This document shows positions 9,663 to 23,608 of a stretch of DNA of 40,336 nt, piece by piece; the first letter of the stretch is position 1, and the number at the start of each line of letters is the position of its first letter. This DNA is from a virus. The notes under the pieces are model-generated. The model was not told where the DNA came from and did no database searches. It worked only from the letters and a program-made list of their open reading frames with translations. The stretch spans positions 1-40,336 of IMG/VR virus record IMGVR_UViG_3300045741_000127, one strand, 5' to 3'. The position numbers and the translations under genes were made by a program.

Positions 9663-11660
9663 TCAGGCCAGCCAGTCGCCTTCGAGCGCGTTCTGGCCCA
9701 GCTTCAGGCCCCTCCTGGCACCCTGATCCACCACCACCCCGTCGGCGATGAGCGCGTCGATCAGGGCCCACACGTCGCGCTTGCGGCCACCCACCGCGCC
9801 GTACACGTCGGTCCGGGTGGGGCTCTCGCCTGCTGCGCAGGCCTTGGCTATCGCGTCGATGATCTTCTGCTTCAAGGGGTCCTCCGGTTGGGTTGCGTCC
9901 TGCACGTTGATGCCGTCGGTGATCGCGAGCGAGGTGACCGGGTCGCCCTGGTCGTCCACGATGCCCAGGTCCACCACCTTGGTCACGAGTGAGCGAGGCG
10001 CAGGCGCCTCACCCTCCTTCATCTTCTGGCACTCCAAGCGCACGTGCAGGGGCGCCAGCTTCTTGCACTCGTACTCGAAGTCGACGGCCGCGCGCAGCAC
10101 CGTGCTGCCTCGGATCTCACCTTCCTTGTTGGCGTGGTGCACGAAGCCCACCGAGATGCCTGGGAACGCGTGCCGAATCCGATCGGCCGCAGCGACCATC
10201 GCGTTCATGTCCTGCTGGCTGTTCTCGTCGCCGCCCATGTTGCGGGCGACCGTGTCGATGATCACCAGCACGGGCAGCTTCTTCGCCTTGGCGATCGCCT
10301 GGATCACGCCCTCGACCGACTCCGGGTCGTCGAGCGCTATACGGCCCTTGGAAACGCCCAGGCGGCCTTCAGGGGCCGGCTCGACGTGGTTGGCTAGGCA
10401 CCATGCCCGGATGCGGTTCTTGAGCCCCCTGCGGCCCTCTCCGGCGATGATGAGCACGTCGCCCTGGTGGCAGTCGTGCCCGAGCCACGGCACGCCCCAG
10501 GCGATCGCGCAGGCCCACGAGACCGCGACAAAGGACTTGTAGCTGCCGGGCTCGCCCCAGAGCACGCCCACCGAGTCGCGCTCCAGGTACCCGCGTATCA
10601 GCCAGACCGGTGCGGACGGCTCGACGTCGGTGAGCCACTCGAAGAGCCCGCGGTCGTCTTTTGCAGCCGGGCGCTGCAACTTCTGCATGTGCTCACGCCA
10701 CAGCCGCGCGGTGCGCTCGTCCATCTCGGTCGAGGGGAAGTCCTGCGGGACCTGCTCGCGTGCCAGCGTGCGCTCGATGAAGTGCAGGCCCGACTTGCCG
10801 GGCGTGGGGATGAAGGTGTCCCAGCGATCGCTGTCGCCGTTGCGCCACTTCACCGAGGTCTGCGACCACGCCACCCATAGATCGAACGCCCACGGCCTGC
10901 CGCCCGCCTTCAGGTGGTGCCCGACGTTGATCCAGGTCTCGCGGTCATCGGCGTCGAGCCACTCGAGGGCGCGCACCAGGGCCGGCGGGGCCTCGGCCTG
11001 CGCGTAGCTGTCGTAGTGCGTGATCGGCACCGCCTTCGCGCGGCGCAGGAGCGTGCTGCCGGCGGTCGTGGCGACAGCGCGCTCGCGCGGCCGGTACCCG
11101 AGCTCGAGGGCGAGCCCGTAGACCGCATCAACGATCGCCCTGGCCTTAACCTCGTCGACCAGGGGCAGCTCGTCACGCTCGACAGCGAGCGGGTTGCGCG
11201 TGAGCCATTCGTAGGGTTTGCCGGTGTCGGGATGCTCACCGAACGCGGCGAGCTGCTGACCGTCGCCCAGGAATTCGATCTTCTCGATCGCGCCGTCGGG
11301 CGAGACCACGCTGCGCTGGATCTTCGGGAACGGCTTGTTGGTCTGGAAAAGCAGCGCGAAGCGCGGCGCCCGGCCGACCCGCACCGGGTAGCCGGTCAGA
11401 CCGAAGCGCGACTGGAGCGTCGCCTCGATGCGCTCGCGTGCCTCGGGGTGCTCCAGGTCGATGTCGAGTGCGGGAGTGGTTCGGGTCAGGAGCCCGACAT
11501 TGCACTCTGAGTGCCGCTGCAGGTCACGAGGGGAGAGCGCGTAGTTCACCCACCCATCAGTGAAAGCGGCCTTACCTCTAAGAGGTACTACCCTGTAGCC
11601 GTGATCAGTGAGGCGCTGCGCCAGCTTGCCGAAGGCGCCGGCTGTTGTGCTAGGATTCAC
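9663..11660 (-). CDS. Primase-helicase (Prim-Pol + RepA-type AAA ATPase), 665 aa
   Basis: It would lay primers and unwind DNA at the phage fork. Residues about 1-170 fit the bifunctional primase-polymerase domain, with the catalytic DID at 66-68 and the GDGQQLAAFGEHP segment at about 132-143. Residues about 225-300 fit a PriCT-like linker (LEWLDADDRETWINVGHHL). Residues about 350-560 are a RepA/RecA-like helicase with Walker A GEPGSYKS at 369-376, Walker B VLVIIDT at 464-470 and a VGFVHHANK motif. The C terminus looks like a winged helix. The GTG at 11660 has an AGAGGAAGGA SD. It is the only replication enzyme on the minus strand, and the candidate origin follows it directly. Confidence 0.88.
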   Translation of the reverse strand: MNPSTTAGAFGKLAQRLTDHGYRVVPLRGKAAFTDGWVNYALSPRDLQRHSECNVGLLTRTTPALDIDLEHPEARERIEATLQSRFGLTGYPVRVGRAPRFALLFQTNKPFPKIQRSVVSPDGAIEKIEFLGDGQQLAAFGEHPDTGKPYEWLTRNPLAVERDELPLVDEVKARAIVDAVYGLALELGYRPRERAVATTAGSTLLRRAKAVPITHYDSYAQAEAPPALVRALEWLDADDRETWINVGHHLKAGGRPWAFDLWVAWSQTSVKWRNGDSDRWDTFIPTPGKSGLHFIERTLAREQVPQDFPSTEMDERTARLWREHMQKLQRPAAKDDRGLFEWLTDVEPSAPVWLIRGYLERDSVGVLWGEPGSYKSFVAVSWACAIAWGVPWLGHDCHQGDVLIIAGEGRRGLKNRIRAWCLANHVEPAPEGRLGVSKGRIALDDPESVEGVIQAIAKAKKLPVLVIIDTVARNMGGDENSQQDMNAMVAAADRIRHAFPGISVGFVHHANKEGEIRGSTVLRAAVDFEYECKKLAPLHVRLECQKMKEGEAPAPRSLVTKVVDLGIVDDQGDPVTSLAITDGINVQDATQPEDPLKQKIIDAIAKACAAGESPTRTDVYGAVGGRKRDVWALIDALIADGVVVDQGARRGLKLGQNALEGDWLA

Positions 11661-11692
11661 GCGTTTCCTTCCTCTCCGGGTTGGGAGCTCCC

Positions 11693-11729
11693 AAGGGGCG
11701 ACGGGTCACACCGTCGCCCCTTTCCTTTT
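11693..11729 (+). terminator. Terminator-like hairpin with T-run (plus strand)
   Basis: AAGGGGCGACGG (11693-11704) pairs perfectly with CCGTCGCCCCTT (11711-11722) around a six-base loop, followed on the plus strand by TTCCTTTT. This is the form of a Rho-independent terminator for rightward transcription, yet no rightward gene precedes it. It may stop antisense transcripts. It lies between the leftward regulator and the leftward primase gene. A second perfect palindrome, TTGGGAGCTCCCAA (11681-11694), abuts it and shares two bases. Confidence 0.6.
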
Positions 11730-11731
11730 GG

Positions 11732-11929
11732 TCACGCGTTTCGCGCCAGCAACGCCTCCTCGACCAGCATCGAGATCACCTTCGACACCGTGCGGTCCTC
11801 GGCCTTCGCAACGGCCGCGACGCGATCGGTGAGCGAGGCCTTTGCGATGAACGACACCTGACGGGTCGACTCCGGTGCCGCCTTCTTGGCCGGCTTGCGC
11901 TTGATGCTGCTCTTCTTGGAAGTGCTCAC
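11732..11929 (-). CDS. Ribbon-helix-helix DNA-binding regulator, 65 aa
   Basis: The GTG at 11929 has an AAAGGAG SD. The first 22 residues are a basic, Lys/Pro-rich tail. Residues about 23-31 (RQVSFIAKA) form the DNA-contacting strand, about 32-46 the first helix and about 47-64 the second (VSKVISMLVEEALL), matching the ribbon-helix-helix fold of Arc/CopG-type regulators. It is divergent from the first rightward gene, and a near-palindrome overlaps the promoter between them. It is likely to repress the rightward unit and perhaps itself. This is inference from fold and position. Confidence 0.75.
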   Translation of the reverse strand: MSTSKKSSIKRKPAKKAAPESTRQVSFIAKASLTDRVAAVAKAEDRTVSKVISMLVEEALLARNA

Positions 11930-11961
11930 GAGGAATCTCCTTTGCGGGGTTAAAGAGTTTA

Positions 11962-11978
11962 CGCGCCAACTTGACGCG
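11962..11978. promoter_or_regulatory. 17-bp near-palindrome, candidate operator
   Basis: CGCGCCAA-C-TTGACGCG reads almost the same on both strands, with one mismatch between arms. It overlaps the -35 (11971-11976) of the rightward promoter and lies 32 bases upstream of the regulator gene. Dyad operators of this size suit a ribbon-helix-helix dimer or tetramer. Confidence 0.55.
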
Positions 11979-11999
11979 AAAATCAGGGTACCGTAATGT
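11971..11999 (+). promoter_or_regulatory. Main rightward (early) promoter
   Basis: TTGACG (11971-11976) is followed after exactly 17 bases by TAATGT (11994-11999). The first rightward start codon is at 12035, and the leader contains CAACCAACCAATCCGGAGA. The spacing and both boxes fit sigma70. The -35 lies inside the candidate operator. Confidence 0.65.
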
Positions 12000-12034
12000 G
12001 ATCGTCCTTTCAACCAACCAATCCGGAGAACCTG

Positions 12035-12445
12035 ATGCAGTTCACCTTTACCTCCGCAGAGCCCAAGGACAACCTCGTGATGCTCAAGAACATCATCGAA
12101 GTCCTCCTGGCTCGCGAGCCCGGCAAGCCCGCCAACGAGACCCCGCAAAGCGCCATCAAGGCTGACGTGCTCGCCCCCACGACGACTGCGGCGGGCCCTG
12201 GCAGCACCGCGCACGTCCCGGTCGAGCCGAAGGCGACGAAGGCCACGAAGCCCAAGGCCAACGGCGCTGATAAACCGGCCCCGGTGCCCACGCTCGACGA
12301 GATACGTCTCGTCCTGATGGGAAAGTCGAAGGACGGCAAGGAAGAGCAGGGCAAGGCGTTGCTCGGCGAATTCGGGTGCGTGAAGCTTTCGCAGATCCCG
12401 GAGGACCGCCGAGTCGAATTCATGGCGCGTGCGCAGGCACTCTAA
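12035..12445 (+). CDS. Hypothetical protein, first gene of the rightward unit, 136 aa
   Basis: The ATG at 12035 follows a CGGAGA SD. There is a short N-terminal helical part (residues 1-30) and a Pro/Ala/Lys/Thr-rich linker (about 31-85). The C-terminal 50-residue helical domain opens with LDEIRLVLMGKSKDGKE and holds a LLGEFGCVKLSQIPEDRR stretch. That C-terminal domain resembles a small repeat found at the end of phage early proteins; I know no proven function. The low-complexity linker suggests two tethered modules. Confidence 0.75.
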   Translation: MQFTFTSAEPKDNLVMLKNIIEVLLAREPGKPANETPQSAIKADVLAPTTTAAGPGSTAHVPVEPKATKATKPKANGADKPAPVPTLDEIRLVLMGKSKDGKEEQGKALLGEFGCVKLSQIPEDRRVEFMARAQAL

Positions 12446-12454
12446 GCCGCGACG

Positions 12455-13564
12455 ATGAGTGCTGGTCACGCAGTACTGGCGCCTTCGGCGTCACTGCGGT
12501 GGATGCTTTGTCCCGGCAGCGTTCGCCTGACGAGGGATCTACCTGAGACTTCGAGCGCGGCCGCTGACGAGGGCACGCTCGCTCACTCCATCGCGGCGGT
12601 GTGCATCACGTCGCGCACGCCCGTCGACCATCACCCGATGGCGGGCGATCTCGAGGACCTGTGCGAGGGCAACATCGAGGCCCTGCAGACCTACGTCGAC
12701 TACGCGATCTCGCTAGTCGACGAGCCGGGCGTCATGCCCTACGTCGAGCAAACCTTTCGGCTCGATCACGTGCTCGGCGAGGAGGCGTTCGGCACGAGCG
12801 ACCTGTGCGTCGTGAAGGGTAAGCAGGCGCGCGTGGTCGACTTGAAGTTCGGCAAGGGCAACGTCGTGTACGCGAGCTATCGCATCAATGGCGTGATGCG
12901 CCCGAACCCGCAGCTCGTGCTCTACGGCCTGGGCGTGCTCGAGAAGCTCGCGTGGCTGGTAGAGGACGTCGACGAGGTGGTGCTCGAGATCTTCCAGCCG
13001 CGTCGCAACCACCGCAGCGAGGTGATCGTGCCGATCGCCGAGATGCTCGAAGAGAAGGGGCGCTTTGCCAAGGTGGCCGAGGTCACGCGCAGGCCAGACG
13101 CGCCGCTCATCCCTGGCGAGGCGCAATGCCAGTGGTGCCCGGTGCGCGCGACCTGCGCGGTGCGCTCGGAGTGGGTGATCGAGTCCTTCCAGACCGAGGT
13201 CGCGTTCATGAACCCGCACGAGCTCGCGCATCACCTGGAGAAGGTCGACGCGATCCGCGCATGGTGCAACGACCTCGAAGAGCTCGCGACCGCGCGCCTG
13301 CAGCGCGATCCGAAGTCGATCCCCGACTGGAAGCTGGTCGAGGGCATGAGCCGGCGCAAGTGGCGGCCCGATGCGATGTCGATCCTGAAAGACCACGACG
13401 ATCTCTTCGTCCGTCAACTCGTCACCCTCGGCGCCGCCGAGAAGTTGATGGGCAAGGACAGCACGCTGCTCGCCAGCGCGCTGGAGAAGCCCCGCGGAAA
13501 GCCGACCCTGGCGCCCGCGTCGGACCCCAGGCCGGCGTTGATCGATACGCCGCTCTTTGACTAA
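12455..13564 (+). CDS. DUF2800 family, Cas4/RecB-like PD-(D/E)XK nuclease, 369 aa
   Basis: The protein has the RecB-nuclease order of motifs: ADEGTLAH at about 37-44, GTSDLCVV with D116, the catalytic DLK at 129-131, and QLVLYGLG at about 153-160. Four Cys are placed as in Cas4/AddB iron-sulphur nucleases: one early (C19) and three late (C225, C228, C234 in CQWCPVRATC). An iron-sulphur cluster is inferred. In phages this family sits beside a DUF2815 protein and a family A polymerase, as here, so an exonuclease role in replication or recombination is likely. No strong SD precedes the ATG nine bases after the upstream stop. Confidence 0.85.
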   Translation: MSAGHAVLAPSASLRWMLCPGSVRLTRDLPETSSAAADEGTLAHSIAAVCITSRTPVDHHPMAGDLEDLCEGNIEALQTYVDYAISLVDEPGVMPYVEQTFRLDHVLGEEAFGTSDLCVVKGKQARVVDLKFGKGNVVYASYRINGVMRPNPQLVLYGLGVLEKLAWLVEDVDEVVLEIFQPRRNHRSEVIVPIAEMLEEKGRFAKVAEVTRRPDAPLIPGEAQCQWCPVRATCAVRSEWVIESFQTEVAFMNPHELAHHLEKVDAIRAWCNDLEELATARLQRDPKSIPDWKLVEGMSRRKWRPDAMSILKDHDDLFVRQLVTLGAAEKLMGKDSTLLASALEKPRGKPTLAPASDPRPALIDTPLFD

Positions 13565-13577
13565 CCTAGGAGAAGTT

Positions 13578-13934
13578 ATGCGCGAACTCATCACCCACAA
13601 AGGCCCGACCAACTACCCGCTCACCGTTACCGTCGTCGACGAGCCCGGCCCCGGCGGCGCGCACCATCACTACGTCATCGACACGCTCGACGGTAAAGCC
13701 CTCGGCGAGGTGAAGTTCCAGAAGGGCCCGCTGAAGGAAAGCAGAGTGAACGGTGTCACGCACGAGGCCCTGCTCGCGATCGTGGCCGACCGCCTCGTGT
13801 CGTTCCAGAAGGGCCCCTTCGCTTGCATCGAGAACGAGCAGGCCCTGGCCAACGTGCAGAAGGCCCTGTCGATCCTGCACGGCCGCACGCTCTCGCGCGC
13901 CAATCGCGGCGTGGAAGGGACCCACAACCTCTAA
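13578..13934 (+). CDS. Conserved phage protein of unknown function, 118 aa
   Basis: The ATG at 13578 has an AGGAGA SD. The frame is open further upstream only through a TTG that overlaps the previous gene. The protein has a beta-rich first half with an Asp/Glu/Gly/His-rich loop (GPGGAHHHY) and FQKGPLKESRVNGVTHEALL. The second half is helical and ends in HGRTLSRANRGVEGTHNL. The RT-x5-RGVEGTH ending is familiar from small phage proteins in replication regions, for which I know no proven role. Placement between the DUF2800 nuclease and the ssDNA-binding protein suggests an accessory replication or anti-host function. Confidence 0.75.
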   Translation: MRELITHKGPTNYPLTVTVVDEPGPGGAHHHYVIDTLDGKALGEVKFQKGPLKESRVNGVTHEALLAIVADRLVSFQKGPFACIENEQALANVQKALSILHGRTLSRANRGVEGTHNL

Positions 13935-14013
13935 GCCCGCATCGTCGGCTCGGCGGATTGAATGTAGTAAGTAGGGCCGTCTCACTTTCTCACTAACTCT
14001 CCGGAGTTCACTT

Positions 14014-14553
14014 ATGAGTACTCAGATCAAGTTGAAGAACGTGCGCTTCTCTTACGCCCACCTGTGGAAGCCGCGCGTCGTGAAGGGCTCGACCAACGGC
14101 CCGTCGTTCAGCGTGGCGCTGATCATCCCGAAAGACCACCCCCAGGTGGCCGAGATCAAGGAGGCGATCAGGACCGAGATCGCTGACCGCTGGCCCGACC
14201 CGAAGAAGCGCCCGCCGAAGCTGCACAACCCGCTGCGCGACGGCGACGCGGAGAAGGAAGGCGACGAGGTGTACGCCAACGCCTACTTCATCAACGCCCG
14301 CAGCGGCGTCGACTACCCGCCGATGGTCTACGACGGCCAGCGCAACAAGGTGGAGAACAGCTCGTTCTGGGGCAGCGGCGACTACGGCAACGCTGCGTTC
14401 GATCTGTACCCGTTCGATGTCGGCACCAACCGCGGCATCGGCGTAGGCCTGAAGCAAGTCCAGTTCGTCCGCAAGGGTGAACCGCTCGGCTTCAGTAACG
14501 CGGCCCCGCTCTTCGATGTCGAAGAGGGCGGCGAAGAGTCGATGTACGACTAA
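14014..14553 (+). CDS. DUF2815 single-stranded DNA-binding protein, 179 aa
   Basis: The ATG at 14014 follows a CCGGAG SD. The protein shows the DUF2815 pattern: KNVRFSYAHLWKP near the N terminus, FSVALIIPKDHP at about 31-42, a PPKLHNPLRDGD segment, YANAYFINARS and a GSGDYGNAAFDLYPFD segment. It ends in an acidic tail (FDVEEGGEES). The beta-rich fold and acidic C terminus are like T7 gp2.5-type ssDNA-binding proteins, where the acidic tail contacts replication partners. Neighbouring nuclease and polymerase genes support this role. Confidence 0.85.
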   Translation: MSTQIKLKNVRFSYAHLWKPRVVKGSTNGPSFSVALIIPKDHPQVAEIKEAIRTEIADRWPDPKKRPPKLHNPLRDGDAEKEGDEVYANAYFINARSGVDYPPMVYDGQRNKVENSSFWGSGDYGNAAFDLYPFDVGTNRGIGVGLKQVQFVRKGEPLGFSNAAPLFDVEEGGEESMYD

Positions 14554-14565
14554 GGGAGTAAGACC

Positions 14566-14961
14566 ATGAGCGATAACTTCGTGAACCTGGAGCGGTCGAT
14601 ACACAGCAGGTCTGGCCTCGGCCTCCAGAACGCGCAACAATCGATGGCCGGCGGAAACGCCAACGGCTACGGCAAGATGGTCGACGTGGCTGGCCAGGGC
14701 GTGGGTCGGCAGATCGCGCCGACGCAAATGGTGCTCGACGAGCAGGAGCGCGATCTCCACAGCTTGCTCGAAGCCTTGACGGGTCTGCGTGAGCGCCTGC
14801 AGTGGACGTGCCGCCCCTCAGAACCGACTCCCGGCCCCGTCGGTGGTATGAAGGGCGTGACGTCGGTGTCCGCATTAATCGAGCGCATCCACGCCAACAC
14901 GGGGCTCGTCTCTTCGGCCTTGCGGGTCGTTCACGACCTGCACGAGCGGCTCGACATCTGA
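14566..14961 (+). CDS. Hypothetical protein, 131 aa
   Basis: The ATG at 14566 has a GGGAG SD 13 bases after the previous stop. The first 50 residues are Gly/Asn/Gln-rich and probably disordered. The remainder is helical, with an LDEQERDLHSLLEALTGLRE helix, a Pro/Gly-rich turn and a VSALIERIHANTGLVSSALR helix. No catalytic motif or membrane segment is visible. Function unknown. It is the last gene before a structured leader and the outer membrane protein gene. Confidence 0.7.
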   Translation: MSDNFVNLERSIHSRSGLGLQNAQQSMAGGNANGYGKMVDVAGQGVGRQIAPTQMVLDEQERDLHSLLEALTGLRERLQWTCRPSEPTPGPVGGMKGVTSVSALIERIHANTGLVSSALRVVHDLHERLDI

Positions 14962-14972
14962 TCAGGTCCGCA

Positions 14973-15025
14973 CGGGGCCGACCATTGGCTAGGTCGCGAT
15001 AGCCAACGCCAGGGCATCGGCCCCG
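14973..15025 (+). ncRNA. Nested hairpin in the leader of the outer membrane protein gene
   Basis: The outer stem CGGGGCCGA (14973-14981) pairs with TCGGCCCCG (15017-15025). Inside it TTGGCTA (14985-14991) pairs perfectly with TAGCCAA (15000-15006). A competing pairing of GCCAGGGCA (15008-15016) with TGCCCCTGGC (15028-15037) would break the outer stem. No T-run follows. It lies 36-90 bases before the ATG at 15062 and could control that gene or protect or process the mRNA. Confidence 0.45.
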
Positions 15026-15061
15026 TATGCCCCTGGCAACCAACCAAACTGGAGAGGAAGA

Positions 15062-15724
15062 ATGAAGAAGATCGTGTTCGGCGCCGTCCTGGCGCTGGTG
15101 TCTTTCGCGGCCGCCGCGTTCGACAAAGAAGTGTTCACGTCGTTCGATCGGGTGCGCTGGTTCGAGTGCGGCACCAATGGGTGCTGGAGACAGCCTCCGC
15201 TGCCCTACAAATTCGATTTGAAGACGCACGGCTGGCGTGCTGGCGCGCGCCTGGGCGAGATCGAAATTGCGTACGAGGACCACGGCAAGGCCTCAGTAGA
15301 TGGCACCTTTGTCACTGACGACAACTACGACTCCCCGAAGGCCAAGGTGCGTGAAGGGTCGCCAACCGTTCACGCGCGCGCCTCGCAAACGCAGACCGGC
15401 CTGAGTGTCGCCTGGACCCCGCGGGCCGAGAGCGGCGGCATGTACCTGCAGCCGGCGATCGGCCTGCTGTACTACGAGCAGGTCGAGACCATCCAGTGGC
15501 TCGACGCGAAGGGCGCGGTCTATCAGGAGGGGACGCTCCACAACCGCGGGCACGTCACGCCCATGCTCGGTCTCGAGGTGGGCGTGGCCCAGGGCCCGGT
15601 GCGGGTAGGCGTCGGCGCTCGTGCGTACTGGCGCCCGCGCTACCGCGACTCGGTTGCCGGCGGCGGCGAAGAGCACACCGTCGGTATGATCACTTGGGGC
15701 GCAACCCTGCGCTACGCGTTCTAA
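15062..15724 (+). CDS. Phage-encoded outer membrane beta-barrel protein, 220 aa
   Basis: The ATG has a GGAGAGG SD and the CAACCAACC leader. Residues 1-19 are a signal peptide (MKKIVFGAVL core, cut after AAA before FDKE). The mature part of about 200 residues alternates polar and hydrophobic residues in strands separated by Gly/Asp-rich turns. It ends in ITWGATLRYAF, an aromatic-terminated strand that is the hallmark of Omp barrels recognised by the BAM machinery. Two Cys lie close together near the mature N terminus. It is probably placed in the host outer membrane during infection; receptor masking or superinfection exclusion is an inference. It sits in the middle of the replication region. 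Confidence 0.75.
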   Translation: MKKIVFGAVLALVSFAAAAFDKEVFTSFDRVRWFECGTNGCWRQPPLPYKFDLKTHGWRAGARLGEIEIAYEDHGKASVDGTFVTDDNYDSPKAKVREGSPTVHARASQTQTGLSVAWTPRAESGGMYLQPAIGLLYYEQVETIQWLDAKGAVYQEGTLHNRGHVTPMLGLEVGVAQGPVRVGVGARAYWRPRYRDSVAGGGEEHTVGMITWGATLRYAF

Positions 15725-15747
15725 CCTTCACCTGTGCGAGGTACTTT

Positions 15748-16017
15748 ATGGCAGCGGAAATCAAGATCATCTCCGACCCGACGACGATCGTTAATTTCCC
15801 GTCGTGGCCGATCCCAACCATCCCTCTGCAGGCCGGCGTCAGCAAGTTCGATCTGTCGACCACGCTTCCGGCGGGGGTCCCGTCCGGAGGAGTCTACGGA
15901 ACGCAAGGCCCGCTCCCAGCCGGGCTGCACTTGACTACGACCGGTCTGCTCAGCGCAGACGCAGGGACTCCGGCGGGAGCTATCGCCGGGGTCGTCTTCA
16001 CGTACACCCTGCCTTAG
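15748..16017 (+). CDS. Small Ig-like (putative-Ig) protein, 89 aa
   Basis: The ATG at 15748 has a GAGGT SD 23 bases after the outer membrane protein stop. The protein has no signal peptide. The segment GPLPAGLHLTTTGLLSADAG (about residues 54-73) followed by an AGVVFTYTL strand matches the He_PIG/cadherin-like pattern of short Ig-fold modules in surface and virion proteins. At 89 residues it is a single module. A structural-type protein among replication genes is unusual. It may decorate virions or partner the outer membrane protein; both are inference. Confidence 0.65.
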   Translation: MAAEIKIISDPTTIVNFPSWPIPTIPLQAGVSKFDLSTTLPAGVPSGGVYGTQGPLPAGLHLTTTGLLSADAGTPAGAIAGVVFTYTLP

Positions 16018-16052
16018 CCTGGAGGGCGAACCCACCCAACCCGGAGAGTTGA

Positions 16053-17900
16053 GTGAAGAGAATCCACCTGGACTTCGAGACCGCGAGCGACGTCGAGCTC
16101 GACGAAGTCGGCCTTCAGAACTACCTGCATCACCCGAGCACGCGCGTGCTGCTCGCGTCGTGGTGCGACCCCGAGGATGGCGCTGGCGTCGTCCAGCGCA
16201 CCTACGAGGACGGCTGGGACTACCTGCGTGCGGTGGTCTCGGTGTCCGACGAGATCCACGCCTGGAACGCACCCTTCGAGTGGGGCGTGATGACCGTGGT
16301 GCTCGGCTGGCCCGTGCCGATCGAGCGCATGCGTTGCTCGATGGCGCACGCCCTCTACAGGGCCTTTCCTGCGTCCCTGGACGAGTGCTGCGCGGCGATG
16401 GGCATCCCAGGCAAGTCTCCTGAAGCGACGCGCCTGTTGAACCTCTGGGCCAGCGGAAAGGGCAAAGCTAAGCCGGGGGACTGGGAGAAGTTCTGCGCCT
16501 ACAACCGCAACGACGTCGTGATCGAGATGGGCACGGCCGAGGTGCTGAAGCCCTTGCCCTGGCCCGAGAACGAGCGCCAGATCTGGATGCTCTCCGAGCA
16601 GATCAACTGGACCGGCACGCCGATCGACGTCGAGGCGGCCGCAGCGGCGGCCGCGCGCCACGAGCTCGAGACCGGCCGCGCGCTCGAGGAGATGCAACGC
16701 CTGACCGGCGTATCCAACGCCAACAGCCCTCAGCAAATCGCGAAGTGGCTCGGCGTGAAGTCGCTCGCCAAAGAACACCTTCCCAGCATGCTGAAGGGGG
16801 CCACCGGCGATCGCCGACGCGTGATCGAGCTGCGCCAACAGGTCGCGCTCTCGGCGCCGAAGAAGTACACCACCGCGCTGCGCCAGCACTACCAGCGGCG
16901 CATGTTCAACATGCTGCAGTACTCGGGCGCCGGCCGCACGCACCGCTGGAGCGGGCGCGGCCTGCAGCCCCAGAACCTGCGACGCGGGTGGAAGAAGGAC
17001 GCGAAGATCCAGGAGGCCTGGGACGCGATCTTCGTCAACGCGGCGATCGACAAGCCCTTCGACATGCTCGCCGATCTCGTGCGCTCGATCATTCGCGCGG
17101 AGAACGGCGGCCTGCTGTGCGTGGCCGACTACTCGTCGATCGAAGTAGTGATGCTGCACTGGCTGTGCCAGGACCAGCCGACCCTCGATCTCATCCGCGC
17201 CGGCCTCGACACCTACAAGCAGCTCGCTGCCCAGCACTTCGGCCTCCCGATCGAAGAGGTGACCGACGAGCAGCGCACCTGGGCGAAGCCCGTGCGGCTC
17301 GGCTGCGGTTACGGCCTGGGCGCCAAGACCCTCGTCGACTACGCGGCGGGCATGGGCGTCGAGATGGACGAGAGCGAGGCCTATGGCGCGGTCTCGACCT
17401 ACAGGCAGAACAACCAAGCGGTGGTCGAGCATTGGTACGGTCTCGAGAGCGCGATGCGCCAGACGATCCAGACCGGCAAGTCGAAGAAGTTCGGCCGCAT
17501 CCTCTATCGGATGGTGGGCAAGGCCTGCGTCATGGTTCTGCCCAGCGGTGCCGAGATCACCTACTGGGATGCGGTGGTCGATGGTGATGGGTCGATCAGC
17601 TACATGGGGGTCCACCAGTACACCGGACAATGGACCCGCATCCGTACCTGGGGCGGCAAGGTCATCGAGAACGCGGTGCAGTCGATCTCGCGCGACGTCC
17701 TGGTGTACGGCATGCGCAAGGCGGCCAACGCCGGTCTGCGCATCGTGCTGCACGTTCACGACGAGCTGGTCACCGAGGATCGACACTCGGTGTTCAACGA
17801 CCTGGAGATCCTCATCGCCTGCATGGTCGCGCCGCCCTGGTGCTTCGATGCGCCGATCAAGGCAAACGGTTTCCGCTGCCCCCGCTACCGAAAGGACTGA
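16053..17900 (+). CDS. DNA polymerase, family A with 3'-5' exonuclease, 615 aa
   Basis: The GTG at 16053 has a CGGAGAG SD. The exonuclease domain begins at once, with Exo I LDFET (D7, E9), Exo II in HAWNAPFEW (about 69-77) and Exo III in YNRNDVVIE (about 150-158). The polymerase domain has SGAGRTHRWSGRGLQPQNLR at 291-310, motif A ADYSSIE (D359), motif B RTWAKPVRLGCGYG (K412 and Y420), and motif C HVHDE (D570, E571). All catalytic acids are present. The length is that of compact phage PolA enzymes without a 5'-nuclease domain. It is the main replicase, acting with the ssDNA-binding protein and primase-helicase. Confidence 0.93.
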   Translation: MKRIHLDFETASDVELDEVGLQNYLHHPSTRVLLASWCDPEDGAGVVQRTYEDGWDYLRAVVSVSDEIHAWNAPFEWGVMTVVLGWPVPIERMRCSMAHALYRAFPASLDECCAAMGIPGKSPEATRLLNLWASGKGKAKPGDWEKFCAYNRNDVVIEMGTAEVLKPLPWPENERQIWMLSEQINWTGTPIDVEAAAAAAARHELETGRALEEMQRLTGVSNANSPQQIAKWLGVKSLAKEHLPSMLKGATGDRRRVIELRQQVALSAPKKYTTALRQHYQRRMFNMLQYSGAGRTHRWSGRGLQPQNLRRGWKKDAKIQEAWDAIFVNAAIDKPFDMLADLVRSIIRAENGGLLCVADYSSIEVVMLHWLCQDQPTLDLIRAGLDTYKQLAAQHFGLPIEEVTDEQRTWAKPVRLGCGYGLGAKTLVDYAAGMGVEMDESEAYGAVSTYRQNNQAVVEHWYGLESAMRQTIQTGKSKKFGRILYRMVGKACVMVLPSGAEITYWDAVVDGDGSISYMGVHQYTGQWTRIRTWGGKVIENAVQSISRDVLVYGMRKAANAGLRIVLHVHDELVTEDRHSVFNDLEILIACMVAPPWCFDAPIKANGFRCPRYRKD

Positions 17901-17903
17901 ACG

Positions 17904-18161
17904 ATGAAGCCCCGTCTCCGATTGCAGCATGTCGCTGCGAACCCGGAGATCCGCATGAGCAGAGCATCTAAGCCCCTCCCTGGGCCTTCGATCGCGGATC
18001 AACTCCGCGCATGGATGAAAGCCCCCGGCATGGCCCTGCCTCCCCCGTTCCTGCGAGGTGAGGGCGTAGCGCATCGGTACGTCGATCCGAAGGCCTTCGC
18101 AGCCAACCCCTGGCCCCCGAAACGCAAGCCCCGCGCCAAGCCGGCGGGCTGGCTGGACTAA
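17904..18161 (+). CDS. Hypothetical basic protein, 85 aa
   Basis: The ATG at 17904 lies three bases after the polymerase stop, with an AAAGGA SD inside the polymerase gene. The protein is basic and Pro/Ala-rich. It has a short helical part (SIADQLRAWMKAPG) and the tail PPKRKPRAKPAGWLD, and is probably largely disordered. No motif is recognised. The next gene has its own promoter starting at the stop of this one, so it ends the polymerase transcript segment. Confidence 0.6.
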   Translation: MKPRLRLQHVAANPEIRMSRASKPLPGPSIADQLRAWMKAPGMALPPPFLRGEGVAHRYVDPKAFAANPWPPKRKPRAKPAGWLD

Positions 18162-18163
18162 CC

Positions 18164-18205
18164 TGTCAAATTTCTCTTGACAAGCCGGTTGGTCGTCGCT
18201 ACTGT
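18164..18205 (+). promoter_or_regulatory. Rightward promoter with TGTCAA-N7-TTGACA element
   Basis: TTGACA (18177-18182) is followed after 17 bases by TACTGT (18200-18205). TGTCAA (18164-18169) lies seven bases upstream of the -35 and is its inverted repeat, with ATTTCTC between. The same arrangement occurs at 19189 and 21312. The gene starts at 18232 with an AAAGGAG SD. Confidence 0.7.
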
Positions 18206-18231
18206 GGCGACTCACACCAAAGGAGATCCAC

Positions 18232-18627
18232 ATGAAGCTCGGCACTGAAACCAACAGCCTCGTCAACCACCTGATGTCGCGCGCCGTGATCGGCCAGCCG
18301 GAACCGGCGGTCGGGATGGGGGTCACGTTCCTGCACTGGACCGACCGCAGCGCCGGCACCATCGTCGACGTGGTCGTGAAGAATGGCAAGATCGTGATTT
18401 TCGGCGCCAAGGAAGACAAGGCCACCCGCGTCGACAAGAACGGCATGAGCGAGGACCAGACCTACGTCTACGAGCGCGACGACGGTGCCCGGCTGCTGCG
18501 CTACAAGCTCGACCGCAAGGGCGTGTGGCGCGGCGTCAGCCTCAACGCCGACGGCCGCTGGGTGTTCAACGGCGGCCCTGGCGTGCAGCTCGGTGTGCGC
18601 AACGCCTACCACGACTTCTCGTTCTGA
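18232..18627 (+). CDS. Hypothetical protein with own promoter, 131 aa
   Basis: The ATG has an AAAGGAG SD and a dedicated promoter. The opening residues LGTETNSLVNHLMSR followed by PEPAVGMGVTFLHWTDRSAG are a pattern I associate with conserved phage proteins of unknown function. The rest is beta-rich and ends in a VRNAYHDFSF tail. No membrane segment or catalytic motif is seen. A strong promoter and SD suggest high early expression. Confidence 0.75.
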   Translation: MKLGTETNSLVNHLMSRAVIGQPEPAVGMGVTFLHWTDRSAGTIVDVVVKNGKIVIFGAKEDKATRVDKNGMSEDQTYVYERDDGARLLRYKLDRKGVWRGVSLNADGRWVFNGGPGVQLGVRNAYHDFSF

Positions 18628-18633
18628 CCACAA

Positions 18634-18653
18634 GGGGCCCCTCGAGGGGCCCC
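18634..18653 (+). other. Perfect 20-bp palindrome between genes
   Basis: GGGGCCCC-TCGA-GGGGCCCC lies seven bases after a stop codon and 18 bases before the next ATG. It would form an eight-pair all-GC stem with a TCGA loop. There is no T-run, so intrinsic termination is unlikely. It could be an mRNA-stabilising or processing hairpin, or a partial block to downstream transcription. Confidence 0.55.
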
Positions 18654-18671
18654 ATCTAACCCGGAGATAAC

Positions 18672-18863
18672 ATGGACTTCCTCTTCACCAACCACGGCAG
18701 CGTCTGCCTGCTCCAGCCCCTAAGCGAAGCGGCTGGCGAGTGGGTCGACGAGCACCTGCCGGAAGACAAGCAGATGTTCGGCAGCGCCGTTGTCGTCGAG
18801 CCCCGCTACGTGGGCCCGATCATCGACGGCATCATCAACGACGGCCTTGAGGTGCGCTCATGA
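18672..18863 (+). CDS. Conserved hypothetical protein, 63 aa
   Basis: The ATG follows an AACCCGGAGA leader. The pattern of an MDFLFTNHGSVCLLQPL opening, then EWVDEHLPEDKQMFGSAVVV, then IIDGIINDGL is shared with many small proteins in phages and mobile elements, for which I know no function. It is a compact, acidic alpha/beta protein. The stop overlaps the next ATG (18860), so the pair is translationally coupled. Confidence 0.75.
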   Translation: MDFLFTNHGSVCLLQPLSEAAGEWVDEHLPEDKQMFGSAVVVEPRYVGPIIDGIINDGLEVRS

Positions 18864-19141
18864 AGAACCCCTTCGGCAAGTCCCGGCCTGTTGGCCAGGG
18901 TTACGTCAAGTTGGTCGACCCCCGCACGGGGTGGGAGTACGAGGTGCTGAAGCTCTACAAGGCGCCTGCGGCCTCCCTCAGCGACCCGTACGCTCGCGCG
19001 CTCTGCAGCGTCCACGGGTTCGAGCACGACATCGGCGACTGCTACGTCAACGACGTGTGGGGCCTGCGGCAGTGGCTCCTCAAGCATCTGGGTGAGGAGG
19101 TCGCCCGGATCGCGATCGAGAAGGCGGCCAGCCATGCCTGA
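18860..19141 (+). CDS. Hypothetical protein, 93 aa
   Basis: It starts within the last codons of the previous gene (ATGA). The protein is mixed in character: an N-terminal Lys/Gly part, a beta segment (KLVDPRTGWEYEVLKLYK), two Cys (ALCSVHGF and GDCYVNDVW), and a C-terminal helix (LRQWLLKHLGEEVARIAIEK). No known motif. It probably acts with the 63-residue protein, given the coupling. Function unknown. Confidence 0.7.
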   Translation: MKNPFGKSRPVGQGYVKLVDPRTGWEYEVLKLYKAPAASLSDPYARALCSVHGFEHDIGDCYVNDVWGLRQWLLKHLGEEVARIAIEKAASHA

Positions 19142-19205
19142 CGATATCCACCGCAACCCGCCGCCGGTCAAGCTGCGCCCGAGCCCGGTGTCAAATATCG
19201 CTTGA
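19134..19205 (+). CDS. Possible 23-residue peptide
   Basis: An ATG overlapping the end of the previous gene opens a frame of 24 codons encoding a Pro-rich peptide (MPDDIHRNPPPVKLRPSPV, then SNIA). It runs into the following promoter and stops within its -35. The GAGG-type SD is weak. It may be a chance frame, though the coupled start is suggestive. Confidence 0.25.
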   Translation: MPDDIHRNPPPVKLRPSPVSNIA

Positions 19206-19230
19206 CAAGGGTTTCGGGCGTCGGTAGCGT
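19189..19230 (+). promoter_or_regulatory. Second TGTCAA-N7-TTGACA promoter
   Basis: TGTCAA (19189-19194) and TTGACA (19202-19207) are spaced by seven bases (ATATCGC). After 17 bases comes TAGCGT (19225-19230). The leader to the ATG at 19268 contains CCAACCAGTCCGGAGA. Layout and spacing match the copy at 18164. Confidence 0.7.
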
Positions 19231-19267
19231 GGAGTCCTCGCCTTATCCAACCAGTCCGGAGAACACG

Positions 19268-19906
19268 ATGCAACTTCGCGATGTCGACACCTCCGCCGAG
19301 CTCATCGCCGCCATGCCGGCCGCGATGGTCGAAAACCTCGAGGCCGCTGCCCGGCTGTTCGCGGCCCGGCCCCGCCAGGACGACTTCACGGTGCGCTCGA
19401 TCGAGGCCTGCATCTCGATCGCCGACTACCTGCGCCGCTACAAGCGGTTCAACTCCGACAAGCAGGCCGAGTACGCGGGCAAGCTGATTGCCTGGGCGAA
19501 GCCCCGCGTGCAGGTCGCCCCCAGCTCGACGTTCGGTCGCACCCCGACGATCCGCCTGCCCAAGCTGCACCTCGTCATGCAGCGCCTGGGAGACCTGCAC
19601 CTGGGCGCCCTGAAGATCTCCCGCAAGAACCAGTCGACCCTGTGCTGGCTCCTCTGGAACGGCGCCCTGGTCGGCAAGATCGACGAGGAGAACGTGGCCC
19701 AGATCTTCCCGAAGAAGGTCGTCGAGGCCGGCACGAGCGCCGCCGAAGTCGAGCGCGTGCTCGTCGAGATCGAGAAGGACCCGTTTGAAGCGGCCAAGCA
19801 GTACGGCCGCGACAGTGGTCGCTGCGCCGCCTGCGGCCGCGACCTGACCGACCCGGAGTCGATCGCCAACGGCATCGGCCCGATCTGCGCGAGCAAGTTC
19901 GCGTAA
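19268..19906 (+). CDS. DUF6011-type zinc-finger protein, 212 aa
   Basis: The ATG at 19268 follows a CGGAGA SD; the frame is open upstream but crosses the promoter. The first half is helical (ELIAAMPAAMVENLEAAARL). The C terminus has GRCAACGRDLTDPESIANG followed by IGPICASKFA, the Cys pattern of DUF6011 small zinc ribbons found in phage and mobile-element proteins. Between them is a beta-rich stretch (RLPKLHLVMQRLGDLHLGAL). The Cys cluster should bind zinc; a nucleic-acid-binding role is inferred. It has its own promoter. Confidence 0.75.
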   Translation: MQLRDVDTSAELIAAMPAAMVENLEAAARLFAARPRQDDFTVRSIEACISIADYLRRYKRFNSDKQAEYAGKLIAWAKPRVQVAPSSTFGRTPTIRLPKLHLVMQRLGDLHLGALKISRKNQSTLCWLLWNGALVGKIDEENVAQIFPKKVVEAGTSAAEVERVLVEIEKDPFEAAKQYGRDSGRCAACGRDLTDPESIANGIGPICASKFA

Positions 19907-19933
19907 CGCACCACCCTCAACCTGGAGAACCGT

Positions 19934-20272
19934 ATGGCCCTCATCATTCACGAAGTGTCCGTCGCCGATGTCGTCGACAACCTGGGCGCCCTGAAGTCCC
20001 AGCAAGCCGATCTCACCACCAAGGCCGACGGCCTGAAGGCCGAGATCATCGCGGCCGCTGTCGGCGCCAACGTGGCGTCCTTCGACGGCCAGCTCTTCCG
20101 CGCCACGGTCACCTTCGCCAACAAGACCGTGGTCGACTACAAGGCGGTGATCGAGGCGCTGGTCACCCTCGGGGAATTTCCGCACGAGATCGTCGACCAG
20201 ATCATCGCGACCCACACCAAGGTGGCCGAAGGCGTGCCGACGGTGCGCGTCTCTGCTCGCAAGGAGGGCTGA
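19934..20272 (+). CDS. Conserved hypothetical coiled-coil protein, 112 aa
   Basis: The ATG has a CTGGAGA SD with an AACC leader. Residues about 10-45 are a coiled-coil helix (LGALKSQQADLTTKADGLK). They are followed by a beta segment (ASFDGQLFRATVTFANKTVV) and a helix, then IIATHTKVAEGVPTVRVSAR at the end. This arrangement of helix, FDGQLFRATV and THT-TVRV is common in phage early regions. No activity is known to me. Confidence 0.7.
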   Translation: MALIIHEVSVADVVDNLGALKSQQADLTTKADGLKAEIIAAAVGANVASFDGQLFRATVTFANKTVVDYKAVIEALVTLGEFPHEIVDQIIATHTKVAEGVPTVRVSARKEG

Positions 20273-20275
20273 ACC

Positions 20276-20461
20276 ATGATGGCTCTCGTCTACAGCCCGA
20301 TGGAGCACGGCTGGTGGGATGGTGTCGGCTGGAGCGTCGAATACCGCGCCGCCCAGGCGTTCGACGACCCGGTGAAAGTTGCCAGGGTCTGCGACGAGAC
20401 CGGCGACGCGACGGCCCGCATCCTGTGGGTCAACGCCGACGACGCGCCCGAGGGAGTCTGA
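20276..20461 (+). CDS. Hypothetical protein, 61 aa
   Basis: Two adjacent ATG codons (20276 and 20279) follow a GAGGG SD. The protein is a small acidic alpha/beta type with a WWDGVGWSVEYRAAQAF segment and VKVARVCDETGDATARILWV. No motif is recognised. It is tightly packed between its neighbours (gaps of three and two bases), so it is part of the same message. Confidence 0.65.
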   Translation: MMALVYSPMEHGWWDGVGWSVEYRAAQAFDDPVKVARVCDETGDATARILWVNADDAPEGV

Positions 20462-20463
20462 TC

Positions 20464-20706
20464 GTGCCCAACTCCTACCGACCGATGGTGCAGGTCAATG
20501 GCAACTGGGCGGGGAACGCCCTGCGCTTTGCCACGTACAAGGAAGCGACCGACAACGCCCAGGACCTGATGCAACGCTGGCTCCTAGTCACCGACATCCG
20601 CGTCGACGAGAGAGAAGACTCCCCCAACTACCTCTGGGTGAACGGGCAACTGGAAAGGATCACGGATGCCGAAGTACCGGGACATGGCGGACCGGCTGTT
20701 GGCTAA
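20464..20706 (+). CDS. Hypothetical protein, 80 aa
   Basis: The GTG at 20464 has a GAGGGAG SD upstream and lies two bases after the previous stop. The frame is open further upstream but overlaps the previous gene. The protein has a beta-rich N terminus (MVQVNGNWAGNALRFATYK), then a helix with NAQDLMQRWLLVTDIRVDE and a YLWVNGQLERI strand. The last 41 bp are shared with the HNH gene in another frame. Function unknown. Confidence 0.65.
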   Translation: MPNSYRPMVQVNGNWAGNALRFATYKEATDNAQDLMQRWLLVTDIRVDEREDSPNYLWVNGQLERITDAEVPGHGGPAVG

Positions 20707-21010
20707 CTCGATCGTCGACCCAGAGACCGGCTGCTGGATCTGGGTCGGCCCGAAGTTCGGTAAGGTGACGATCTACGGATACGTCACTGTGAAGCGCAAC
20801 GGGAAACCGGTGCACAAGGCGGCCCATAGGATGAGCTACGAGACCTTCATCGAACCCATCCCCGAAGGATTCGAGCTCGATCACAAACTCGAGCTCCCGT
20901 GCCGCGGGGGCCTGTGCATCCACCCGAACCACGTCGAGCCGGTGACCCGGAGCGAGAACGAGCAACGTAAGGCGGCGCGTCGCCGCCAGCCAGGAGAAGA
21001 CGATGAGTGA
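20666..21010 (+). CDS. HNH endonuclease, 114 aa
   Basis: This is a free-standing nuclease of the HNH_3-like type. It has ETGCWIWVG at about 20-28, AHRMSYETF at about 53-61, the core FELDHK with D72 and H73, and a CRGGLCIHPNHVEPVTRSEN segment in which H86/H89 and N98 supply the remaining HNH positions. Such genes can be homing nucleases or have a role in DNA processing at packaging. The ATG lies inside the previous gene with an AAAGGATC SD region. It overlaps the next gene by eight bases. Confidence 0.85.
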   Translation: MPKYRDMADRLLANSIVDPETGCWIWVGPKFGKVTIYGYVTVKRNGKPVHKAAHRMSYETFIEPIPEGFELDHKLELPCRGGLCIHPNHVEPVTRSENEQRKAARRRQPGEDDE

Positions 21011-21365
21011 GTGGACCGAAGAGCAGTGGTGCAAACGGTACGCCGAGGAGTCGGGCGGGGCCCTGCTGAAGCTGCTGCCGTTCGCGGTACGCGGCCTTCC
21101 AGACCGTTTGCTGCTGCTGCCCAGGGGGTTGGTCTGCTTCGTCGAGATGAAGGTGCTACGGGGCGATTTGAGGCCTTCCCAGGGCGTTTGGCGCAAGAGG
21201 CTCCTCCGCATGGGAATGAACTACGCGGTGGTGCGCTCGAAGGCCGACTTCCTGGAGGTCTGTCGGTACCTGATGCTCGGGCATTCGATTCCGACCAGCC
21301 TGCAGGACGATCGTCAAATTTCTCTTGACAAACTCCCGCCCCGCAAGCCACGATTGAGGCTCTAA
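21003..21365 (+). CDS. VRR-NUC domain nuclease, 120 aa
   Basis: This is a stand-alone VRR-NUC (PD-(D/E)XK superfamily) nuclease. It shows RGLPDRLLL with D34, the catalytic FVEMK with E48 and K50, then LRPSQGVWRK with Q60, followed by the typical GMNYAVVRSKADF segment. Stand-alone VRR-NUC proteins of this size are common next to SNF2-type helicases in phage replication modules, as here. They may act on branched DNA. The C-terminal coding part contains the next promoter. Confidence 0.88.
   Translation: MSEWTEEQWCKRYAEESGGALLKLLPFAVRGLPDRLLLLPRGLVCFVEMKVLRGDLRPSQGVWRKRLLRMGMNYAVVRSKADFLEVCRYLMLGHSIPTSLQDDRQISLDKLPPRKPRLRL
21312..21354 (+). promoter_or_regulatory. Third promoter of the TGTCAA-N7-TTGACA type (intragenic)
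   Basis: CGTCAA (21312-21317), ATTTCTC and TTGACA (21325-21330) match the other two copies, with one change in the left arm. The -10 is poor: CACGAT at 18-base spacing (21349-21354) is the best. It lies within the end of the VRR-NUC gene and would serve the helicase genes that start at 21380. Confidence 0.55.
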
Positions 21366-21379
21366 CCCGGAGGACAATT

Positions 21380-21568
21380 GTGGAACTCAAACAACTGAAA
21401 GTCGGCGACCGAGTGCAGATGCACCCCGCCACCAACGCCTGGATGCGCGGGGACCGGTTCGGCGAAGTCGTCGCCATAAACACCCGTCGCGGCACGGTTC
21501 GCGTGTTGTTGTGGAAGTCCGAGCGCAAGATCGTGTTCAGACCGATCAACATTCTCGAGGTGCTCTGA
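21380..21568 (+). CDS. Small SH3-like protein, 62 aa
   Basis: The GTG at 21380 has a GGAGGA SD and an AACCCGGAGGA leader. The sequence MELKQLKVGDRVQMHPAT followed by GEVVAINTRRGTVRVLLW alternates short beta strands. This resembles KOW/SH3-like small barrels that often bind nucleic acid or protein. The stop overlaps the helicase start (TGATG), so the two are coupled and may work together. Confidence 0.7.
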   Translation: MELKQLKVGDRVQMHPATNAWMRGDRFGEVVAINTRRGTVRVLLWKSERKIVFRPINILEVL

Positions 21569-23022
21569 TGGAAGCGTTCAACCCCCGCCCGTACCAGCTC
21601 GACGCGATCAAGCGCGGACTGGCCCTGCCGGCGTTCGCGCTGTTCCTGGACCCCGGCATGGGAAAGACCAGTTCGACCCTGGAGATCGTGCGCGAGCTCA
21701 TCCAGTCGAAGCAACATAAGTCGGCCCTGGTGATCGCGCCGATCCGTCCCGCGCGCTATACGTGGCCCGCCGAGACGCAGAAGTGGGCACAGTTCAACAA
21801 CCTGCGCGTGTCGCTGGTGCTGGGGTCGCTCAAGCAACGCCGTGCCGCCCTGCGTGCGCCGGCCGAGATCTACGTGATCAACCCGGAGAACGTGCAGTGG
21901 CTCTACGACGAGCTCGCCGCCGAGCAGGACCCGGCCGCGCGCCGCCAGTGGTTCACGCCGACCATCCTGGTGGTCGACGAGTCGACGAAATTCAAGAACC
22001 CCCAGGCGAAGCGGTTTAAGGCCCTGAAGGACATGCTGCCGCTCTTCAAGCGGCGCTACATCCTGACCGGCGCGCCGGCCCCGCAATCGCTGCAAGATCT
22101 CTGGTCGCAGGTCTACCTTCTCGACGCTGGCGCGCGCCTTGGCCGCTCGATCACGGCGTTCCGAAAGCGCTTCTTCGATGAGGTGATCCCCTTCCCTGGC
22201 GCGTCGTTCAGCGAGTGGGTGTTGCGCGAGGGCGCGGACGTGGAGATCTTCGATCGCATCGCGCCGTTGTCTATCCGCCTGGATTCTCGCGAGCACCTCG
22301 CGATGCCCGAGCTCGTGATCAACAAGGTCGACGTCGAGCTCCCCGAAGGCGCCGCCCGTGTGTACGCGAAGCTAGAGCGGGACTTCGTTGCCGGCATCGC
22401 CGACGGCAAGGTCACCGCTGCGAACGCGGCCGCCGCTTCGATGAAACTGCGCCAGATCGCGAACGGCACGGTGTACTACACCGACGAAGAGGCGGGCCAA
22501 GGTGGCGCAGTCGGAGAGGTTCACGACGCGAAGATAGAGGCCTTGGTGGATCTGGTCGAAGAGCAGAGCGGCCAGCCGCTGCTGGTCGCGGTGGCGTTCA
22601 AGCACGAGGTGGTGCGCATCCGCGAGGCGATCGGCGGCGACGTGCCGTACTTGGGTGGTGGGGTTCCGACGAAAGAGGCCGACGACATCATCGCTAGCTG
22701 GAACCGCGGCGAGATCCCGGTTCTACTCGCTCACCCGACGAGCGTGGCGCACGGCCTGAACCTGCAGAGCGGTGGCCACAGCCTCGCGTGGTTCGGCCTG
22801 TCGTGGTCGCTCGAAGAGTACATCCAGATGAACGGGCGGGTGTGGCGCCAAGGCCAGAAAAGCCCGATGGTGATCGTGCATCACATCATCGCCCGCAACA
22901 CCATCGACGAAGCGATCGTCGCCGCGCTCGATCGCAAGGACGCAACCCAAGCCGGCCTATTCGCAACGCTGAAGAGGTACGCCAATGGCAAGCAAGAGGG
23001 GGCGGCCCGCGCGGCCGCGTAA
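21568..23022 (+). CDS. SNF2-type DNA helicase/translocase, 484 aa
   Basis: The ATG at 21568 overlaps the previous stop. Motif I is DPGMGKTS (28-35), preceded by the Q-like RPYQLDAI. Motif II is VVDEST (135-140), motif III LTGAPAP (166-172) and motif VI GRVWRQGQ (423-430) with the arginine finger. The C-terminal RecA lobe has the HPTSVAHGLNLQSGG segment of motif V. This compact SNF2 form is a standard neighbour of VRR-NUC, DUF2800 and DUF2815 genes in phages. It probably remodels forks or recombination intermediates. The last 38 bp overlap the next gene. Confidence 0.9.
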   Translation: MEAFNPRPYQLDAIKRGLALPAFALFLDPGMGKTSSTLEIVRELIQSKQHKSALVIAPIRPARYTWPAETQKWAQFNNLRVSLVLGSLKQRRAALRAPAEIYVINPENVQWLYDELAAEQDPAARRQWFTPTILVVDESTKFKNPQAKRFKALKDMLPLFKRRYILTGAPAPQSLQDLWSQVYLLDAGARLGRSITAFRKRFFDEVIPFPGASFSEWVLREGADVEIFDRIAPLSIRLDSREHLAMPELVINKVDVELPEGAARVYAKLERDFVAGIADGKVTAANAAAASMKLRQIANGTVYYTDEEAGQGGAVGEVHDAKIEALVDLVEEQSGQPLLVAVAFKHEVVRIREAIGGDVPYLGGGVPTKEADDIIASWNRGEIPVLLAHPTSVAHGLNLQSGGHSLAWFGLSWSLEEYIQMNGRVWRQGQKSPMVIVHHIIARNTIDEAIVAALDRKDATQAGLFATLKRYANGKQEGAARAAA

Positions 23023-23200
23023 CGAGAGGCTTCGGCAAGTTCTCAAGACCCGCAAGGTCTCGCAAACGCAGCTCGCGGAACTCGAGGGGGTCACCAGAGA
23101 GGCGGTGCGCCAGTGGTGCCTCAAGGGTGTGCCGCACTATCGCATCGCCCAGGTGGCCGAGCACCTGTCGGTACCGAAGTCCTGGTTGACGGGGCTTTAG
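22985..23200 (+). CDS. Helix-turn-helix DNA-binding protein, 71 aa
   Basis: The ATG lies inside the end of the helicase gene, with an AAGAGG SD. Residues 1-15 are basic. Residues about 24-65 (VSQTQLAELEGVTREAVRQW, then a VPHYRIAQVAEHLSVPKSWL stretch) form a Cro/XRE-like helix-turn-helix. It could regulate the rightward or late promoters. It is located far from the divergent control region, so it is more likely a delayed-early regulator than an immunity repressor (inference). Confidence 0.75.
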   Translation: MASKRGRPARPRNERLRQVLKTRKVSQTQLAELEGVTREAVRQWCLKGVPHYRIAQVAEHLSVPKSWLTGL

Positions 23201-23332
23201 ATGGCCTACAGAGAAAGGGAACTGGTCAAAGATTGGCTCGAAGTGCAGAACCGTCGAGCTCTACGTAACGAGGCGATCCTGTGGGCAGTCATCTCGATGT
23301 CCCTGGTCGCCTGGATCATAGGAGGGATGTGA
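23201..23332 (+). CDS. Small single-pass membrane protein, 43 aa
   Basis: The ATG directly follows the previous stop. The N terminus is charged and helical (MAYRERELVKDWLEVQNRR). Residues about 27-43 form one transmembrane helix (AILWAVISMSLVAWIIGG). The stop overlaps the next ATG (TGATG). Small early membrane proteins of this form may act on the host membrane or on incoming DNA of other phages. The function here is unknown. Confidence 0.6.
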   Translation: MAYRERELVKDWLEVQNRRALRNEAILWAVISMSLVAWIIGGM

Positions 23333-23607: not shown

Positions 23608-23608
23608 G

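Follow-up and report, generated by a model that had tools for sequence, protein, structure and literature searches.

A predicted outer-membrane beta-barrel encoded among the replication genes of a virulent-looking phage

Between its genes for single-stranded DNA-binding protein (SSB) and DNA polymerase, a phage genome recorded as IMGVR_UViG_3300045741_000127 carries a gene for a 220-residue protein (P0001) that is very probably an outer-membrane beta-barrel. The window that we analysed, meaning the whole stretch of DNA, is 40,336 nucleotides long. As the best overall explanation, to which we attach a rough probability of 0.35, we propose by analogy with known phage proteins that P0001 would be a barrel made early in infection, the product of an accessory gene of a virulent-looking phage, and that it would alter the surface of the infected cell.

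Results

Sequence signals and calibration of the filter

The segment at 15062-15724 is a real coding gene. It starts with ATG, and its GC content at the three codon positions (0.65/0.49/0.85) resembles that of the neighbouring genes, which led us to take the frame as coding. The initial annotation had ascribed to the product a signal peptide and an aromatic-terminated last strand, and both are present in the sequence (Table 1). The signal peptide, MKKIVFGAVLALVSFAAAA followed by F, is cut between residues 19 and 20, before F20, as read by eye; sequence and filter (see below) agree on a cleavable Sec signal peptide that has no lipobox. P0001 is not a lipoprotein, since the first of its only two cysteines is residue 36, and the lipoprotein-type profile LPAM_1 gave E 0.31, below the cut-off. 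The second cysteine is residue 41, and the pair may possibly form a disulfide in the first surface loop. At the other end, the chain terminates in ...ITWGATLRYAF, with F, Y, L, A, W and I at positions 1, 3, 5, 7, 9 and 11 counted from the end, an aromatic and alternating last strand by both sequence and filter. Such a C-terminal F-x-Y-x-L-x-A-x-W pattern is recognised by BAM in other outer-membrane proteins (OMPs).

Table 1. Features of the P0001 gene and its surroundings; positions are those of the window.
Feature	Position	Strand	Remarks
Primase-like gene	9663-11660	-	
Gene for ssDNA-binding protein	14014..14553	+	upstream border of the slot; Enc34_ssDNA-bd E 6.5e-39
Gene for 131-aa protein of unknown family	14566..14961	+	opens the slot
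Inverted repeat in the leader	arms 14963-14981, 15017-15035	+	arms 79% complementary; not followed by a T run
Shine-Dalgarno-like GGAGAGGA	15051..15058	+	sequence 5' of the P0001 gene
P0001 gene, predicted outer-membrane beta-barrel	15062..15724	+	220 aa, stop codon included
Predicted Sec signal peptide of P0001	15062..15118	+	residues 1-19; sequence and filter
C36-GTNG-C41	15167..15184	+	the sole two cysteines of P0001; sequence
Last strand of P0001, TVGMITWGATLRYAF	15677..15721	+	C-terminal F-x-Y-x-L-x-A-x-W pattern
Gene for 89-aa protein	15748..16017	+	after the P0001 gene, same slot; He_PIG (Ig-like) E 0.085, below cut-off
Family A DNA polymerase gene	16053..17900	+	borders the slot downstream; phrog_17 E 7.2e-87, DNA_pol_A E 2.1e-20

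The filter for OMPs had two parts, a signal peptide and an OMP-type last strand, and was applied to open reading frames (ORFs) of at least 80 aa. Across 51 viral loci, P0001's own window included, it passed a single ORF out of 2,907, and this was P0001; the last-strand motif taken alone also singled out P0001 among the same 2,907 viral-locus ORFs. Six loci of E. coli K-12, picked for holding OMP genes, gave five passes among 452 ORFs (OmpX, OmpW, PagP, OmpC and LamB), all of them annotated OMPs, i.e.: no false positive in that set. It missed OmpA because the barrel there does not form the C-terminus. As positive controls we included lambda-type Lom in two copies, and both passed. The Omp-type barrel of the initial annotation is thus backed by the sequence signals and by a calibrated filter, but neither a confident fold nor a homologue was obtained.

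Strand pattern and structure models

The mean strand alternation of mature P0001 was higher than in shuffled sequences (p 0.0032; 5,000 shuffles), and three other measures of alternation gave p values of 0.08, 0.08 and 0.14 (again with 5,000 shuffles). We give alternation little weight because the measure separates OMPs poorly from other proteins: YfaP, a beta protein that is not an OMP, scored at OMP level (z 3.5), while OmpX (z 0.6) and PagP were low. We accordingly dropped the score as an OMP discriminator.

With its strands placed by eye, the mature chain would most likely fold as an eight-stranded barrel. The strands fall roughly at residues 24-35, 48-64, 66-75, 103-119, 126-145, 164-177, 179-194 and 206-220, joined by short turns at 64-66, 120-126 and 177-179 and by four longer loops, and we read in this an arrangement of four long loops and short turns like that of OmpX/OmpA-type barrels. 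Structure prediction had been proposed as a check with the initial annotation. AlphaFold2, run on the single sequence, returned strands at low confidence, with a pLDDT of 34.6 with the signal peptide and 34.5 without it, too poor for use; in both models the strands lie in the C-terminal half and the signal peptide is the sole helix. A Foldseek search with the poor model lacking the signal peptide found nothing at E 0.001, and among the 50 matches listed for it there was no outer-membrane protein, the best of them being a levivirus coat protein (E 0.072); we attach little or no importance to a search made with such a model.

Search for relatives

At the level of sequence, P0001 is without detectable relatives within the collections that could be searched. 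No homologue was found by tblastn against phages (at E ≤ 1 and at E ≤ 10), where the sole match, a levivirus maturation gene at E 6, was not credited as one; against plasmids, a single match (E 0.7) that partially overlaps an annotated gene was dismissed as chance. Peptide scans of IMG/VR virus contigs, with the whole of P0001 and with its C-terminal half, and of GTDB genomes with P0001 returned no relative by a method that finds close kin only. A second scan of genome contigs, with the helicase as query, gave none either. In 23 related virus records no P0001 match was seen at E 10, in a search that had no positive control. By phmmer, no homologue was found among PDB sequences, the only matches being E2 envelope or structural-polyprotein chains (E 0.4-0.9), which we rejected. 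A DNA pattern derived from residues 48-65 hit 18 loci, and no frame read there resembles a relative. The literature searched held no description of the protein encoded at 15062-15724.

Profile collections were equally silent: P0001 had no match in Pfam, PHROGs, NCBIfam or PADLOC. A search against Omp families, also proposed with the initial annotation, came back empty in Pfam, at E ≤ 1 for the whole protein and at E ≤ 10 for pieces of the mature chain, which leaves P0001 outside the Ail/Lom/OmpX, OMP_b-brl and other OMP families of that database. PF13505 was absent from the whole genome at E 10 and present in 6 of 14 control genomes. A candidate match to phrog_24410 (E 0.22) was traced in relatives and then dropped; this profile matches 13 of 14 control genomes too, and its hits fall in unrelated frames.

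Genome and replication operon

An exact direct repeat of 127 bases, a length that may be the assembler's word length, joins the two ends of the record (1-127 and 40210-40336), from which we take the record to be probably a complete genome, assembled as a circle of about 40,209 bases (~40.2 kb). Tyrosine and serine integrases (PF00589, PF00239) were absent from the record at E 1, and the same profiles matched 14 of 14 and 13 of 14 control genomes. Lacking both, the phage looks virulent, as judged from these integrase families only, and neither integrase type accompanies the gene in this genome, as one would be expected to do for a lysogenic-conversion gene of a temperate phage.

The minus strand carries the virion genes, those for capsid, portal and terminase among them. 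Two further minus-strand frames drew our attention. Among the genes scored, the one at 34800-35927 encodes the protein with the highest hydrophobicity alternation (z 4.2), which also matches a tail fibre weakly (E 0.00079). A frame of 677 aa, possibly for a fibre-like protein, spans the record ends between a point 452 bases short of the end and about position 1582, and is thus interrupted in the window.

The initial annotation had placed the gene among replication genes, which is where it stands: exonuclease and SSB come before it, and DNA polymerase and helicase after it, all on the same strand. The plus-strand module as a whole comprises exonuclease (DUF2800), SSB, DNA polymerase A, HNH and resolvase-like genes and helicase, and its order is common to Thiohalocapsa phage LS06-2018-MD04 and Burkholderia phage BcepC6B.

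A gap of 100 nt (14962-15061) precedes the gene, and for this leader a structure of its own had been claimed. It does contain the longest inverted repeat within 11600-24000. It folds at -39.9 kcal/mol, modestly better than shuffles (z -1.84, with 4 of 200 as good), but such energies are common in this GC-rich genome, the 100-nt windows that start in the leader ranking 1,227th to 3,249th among 4,024 genome windows. The leader was therefore dropped as an unusual RNA. Rfam had no match within the window.

A variable slot between SSB and DNA polymerase

In this genome the accessory slot between SSB and DNA polymerase spans 14554-16052 and contains, besides the P0001 gene, those for the 131-aa and 89-aa proteins. 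We found no relatives of the former; the latter has no signal peptide and no relatives, its phage search giving no match. Searches with proteins of the window placed both SSB and polymerase in 17 loci or records of related phages, and the slot is variable in both size and content across them. The shortest slot measures 80 nt (L038) and the longest about 4.0 kb (L024), and some are nearly empty, with only 80-250 nt. Others hold a class II ribonucleotide reductase (L005), a C5 methylase (L024), a NUMOD4/HNH gene (L019), or an HNH-like gene together with a 55-aa membrane-like frame (L002); L018, where SSB was not located, has a Dam methylase. In BcepC6B the slot carries a DNA methyltransferase, and BcepC6B/BPP-1-like phages have accessory genes in the very place that the P0001 gene occupies here. 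The filter passed no ORF in any of 18 relatives' slots, a set from which the near-duplicates L006 and L015 had been excluded, and so the conservation in related phages that the initial annotation had wanted checked was not seen: no relative found has an OMP-type gene in that place.

Discussion

We infer the steps that lie beyond an outer-membrane barrel as follows. P0001 would be made early, alongside SSB and polymerase, exported by Sec and inserted by BAM in the outer membrane with its four loops outside. The surface of the infected cell would thereby change, further phages, of its own kind or rivals, would bind less, and released progeny would stick less to the altered cell or to its debris. 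As no sigma-70-like promoter was matched in the region, the early timing is read from the position of the gene. The surface and exclusion step is an analogy, since it is modelled on other superinfection-exclusion proteins. The components of this proposal differ in strength. That P0001 changes the infected cell's surface at all has, in our view, about even odds. That it acts specifically in exclusion or receptor masking is the function we favour, but as a tentative suggestion drawn from the same analogy. The most particular version, in which a virulent phage uses a replication-time barrel of an unseen family to remodel or mask the receptor surface, exclusion being achieved by a barrel within the membrane instead of a periplasmic lipoprotein, is somewhat unlikely.

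The same signals could belong to a barrel of the Lom/OmpX type that converts the surface of the infected cell, or of a carrier state, conferring adhesion or resistance to stress or serum, and that is unrelated to other phages. The phage-encoded barrels found here are only Lom-like: a search with OmpX matched 96 of 50,697 phage records, mostly of E. coli phages, and many of the matches listed are annotated as Lom. Lom is described as residing in the outer membrane, with a link to adhesion, and as expressed in lysogens (PMC3342100). When P0001 was aligned pairwise with 11 proteins, OmpX was the best, slightly above shuffles (z 2.5, with 8 of 400 as good; one of 11 comparisons, uncorrected). Conversion of this type is nevertheless unlikely in a genome that has closed ends and no integrase, for a gene that belongs to the replication operon instead of a tail region and whose product has no Pfam match to Ail_Lom or to the OMP families.

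Another candidate role is help at the envelope, in which a small pore or membrane-loosening barrel would feed nutrients to replication or prepare lysis. In its favour, relatives carry ribonucleotide reductase in the slot, which makes metabolic support one of its themes. Eight-stranded barrels, however, usually have no open pore, and no lysis gene was identified adjoining the P0001 gene, so that we hold this role to be improbable. Just as improbable is that P0001 is no integral barrel, but a soluble beta protein that is secreted, or a component of the virion, whose terminal F is coincidental: the want of a confident barrel model, the Foldseek result and the high alternation of YfaP would fit this, but the filter gave no false positive in E. 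coli and no other pass in the viral loci, and the virion genes form a separate module on the other strand.

Should the preferred reading of an early surface-altering barrel hold, a barrel without detectable relatives, in a replication operon and with no integrase, would show that lytic phages too insert barrels in the host surface. It also singles out the region between SSB and polymerase, in this group of phages, as a site worth screening for accessory genes.

Among known systems, T5 Llp and Rtp45 of phage Rtp act at outer-membrane receptors and bring about superinfection exclusion, and exclusion proteins are said to be expressed early by many phages (PMC9586334, PMC12685063). Llp and Rtp45 are small periplasmic lipoproteins, whereas P0001 lacks the lipobox cysteine of Llp, Rtp45 and Cor and resembles an integral barrel; the comparison is therefore one of how the proteins may work only. 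The closest known phage barrel to P0001 is Lom, an eight-stranded barrel of the Ail/Lom/OmpX type. Both are phage-encoded, have about 200 aa, a signal peptide and an OMP-type last strand, and pass the same filter, yet there is no detectable sequence relation between them (z 1.44; 37 of 400 shuffles as good). Their genes also differ in place: that of Lom, which adjoins the J tail fibre gene in two lambda-like phages, lies between tail gene J and a tail fibre gene, and that of P0001 between SSB and DNA polymerase. Phage barrels of the Lom/OmpX type are already known, and what is new in P0001 is its lack of detectable relatives and its place in a replication operon.
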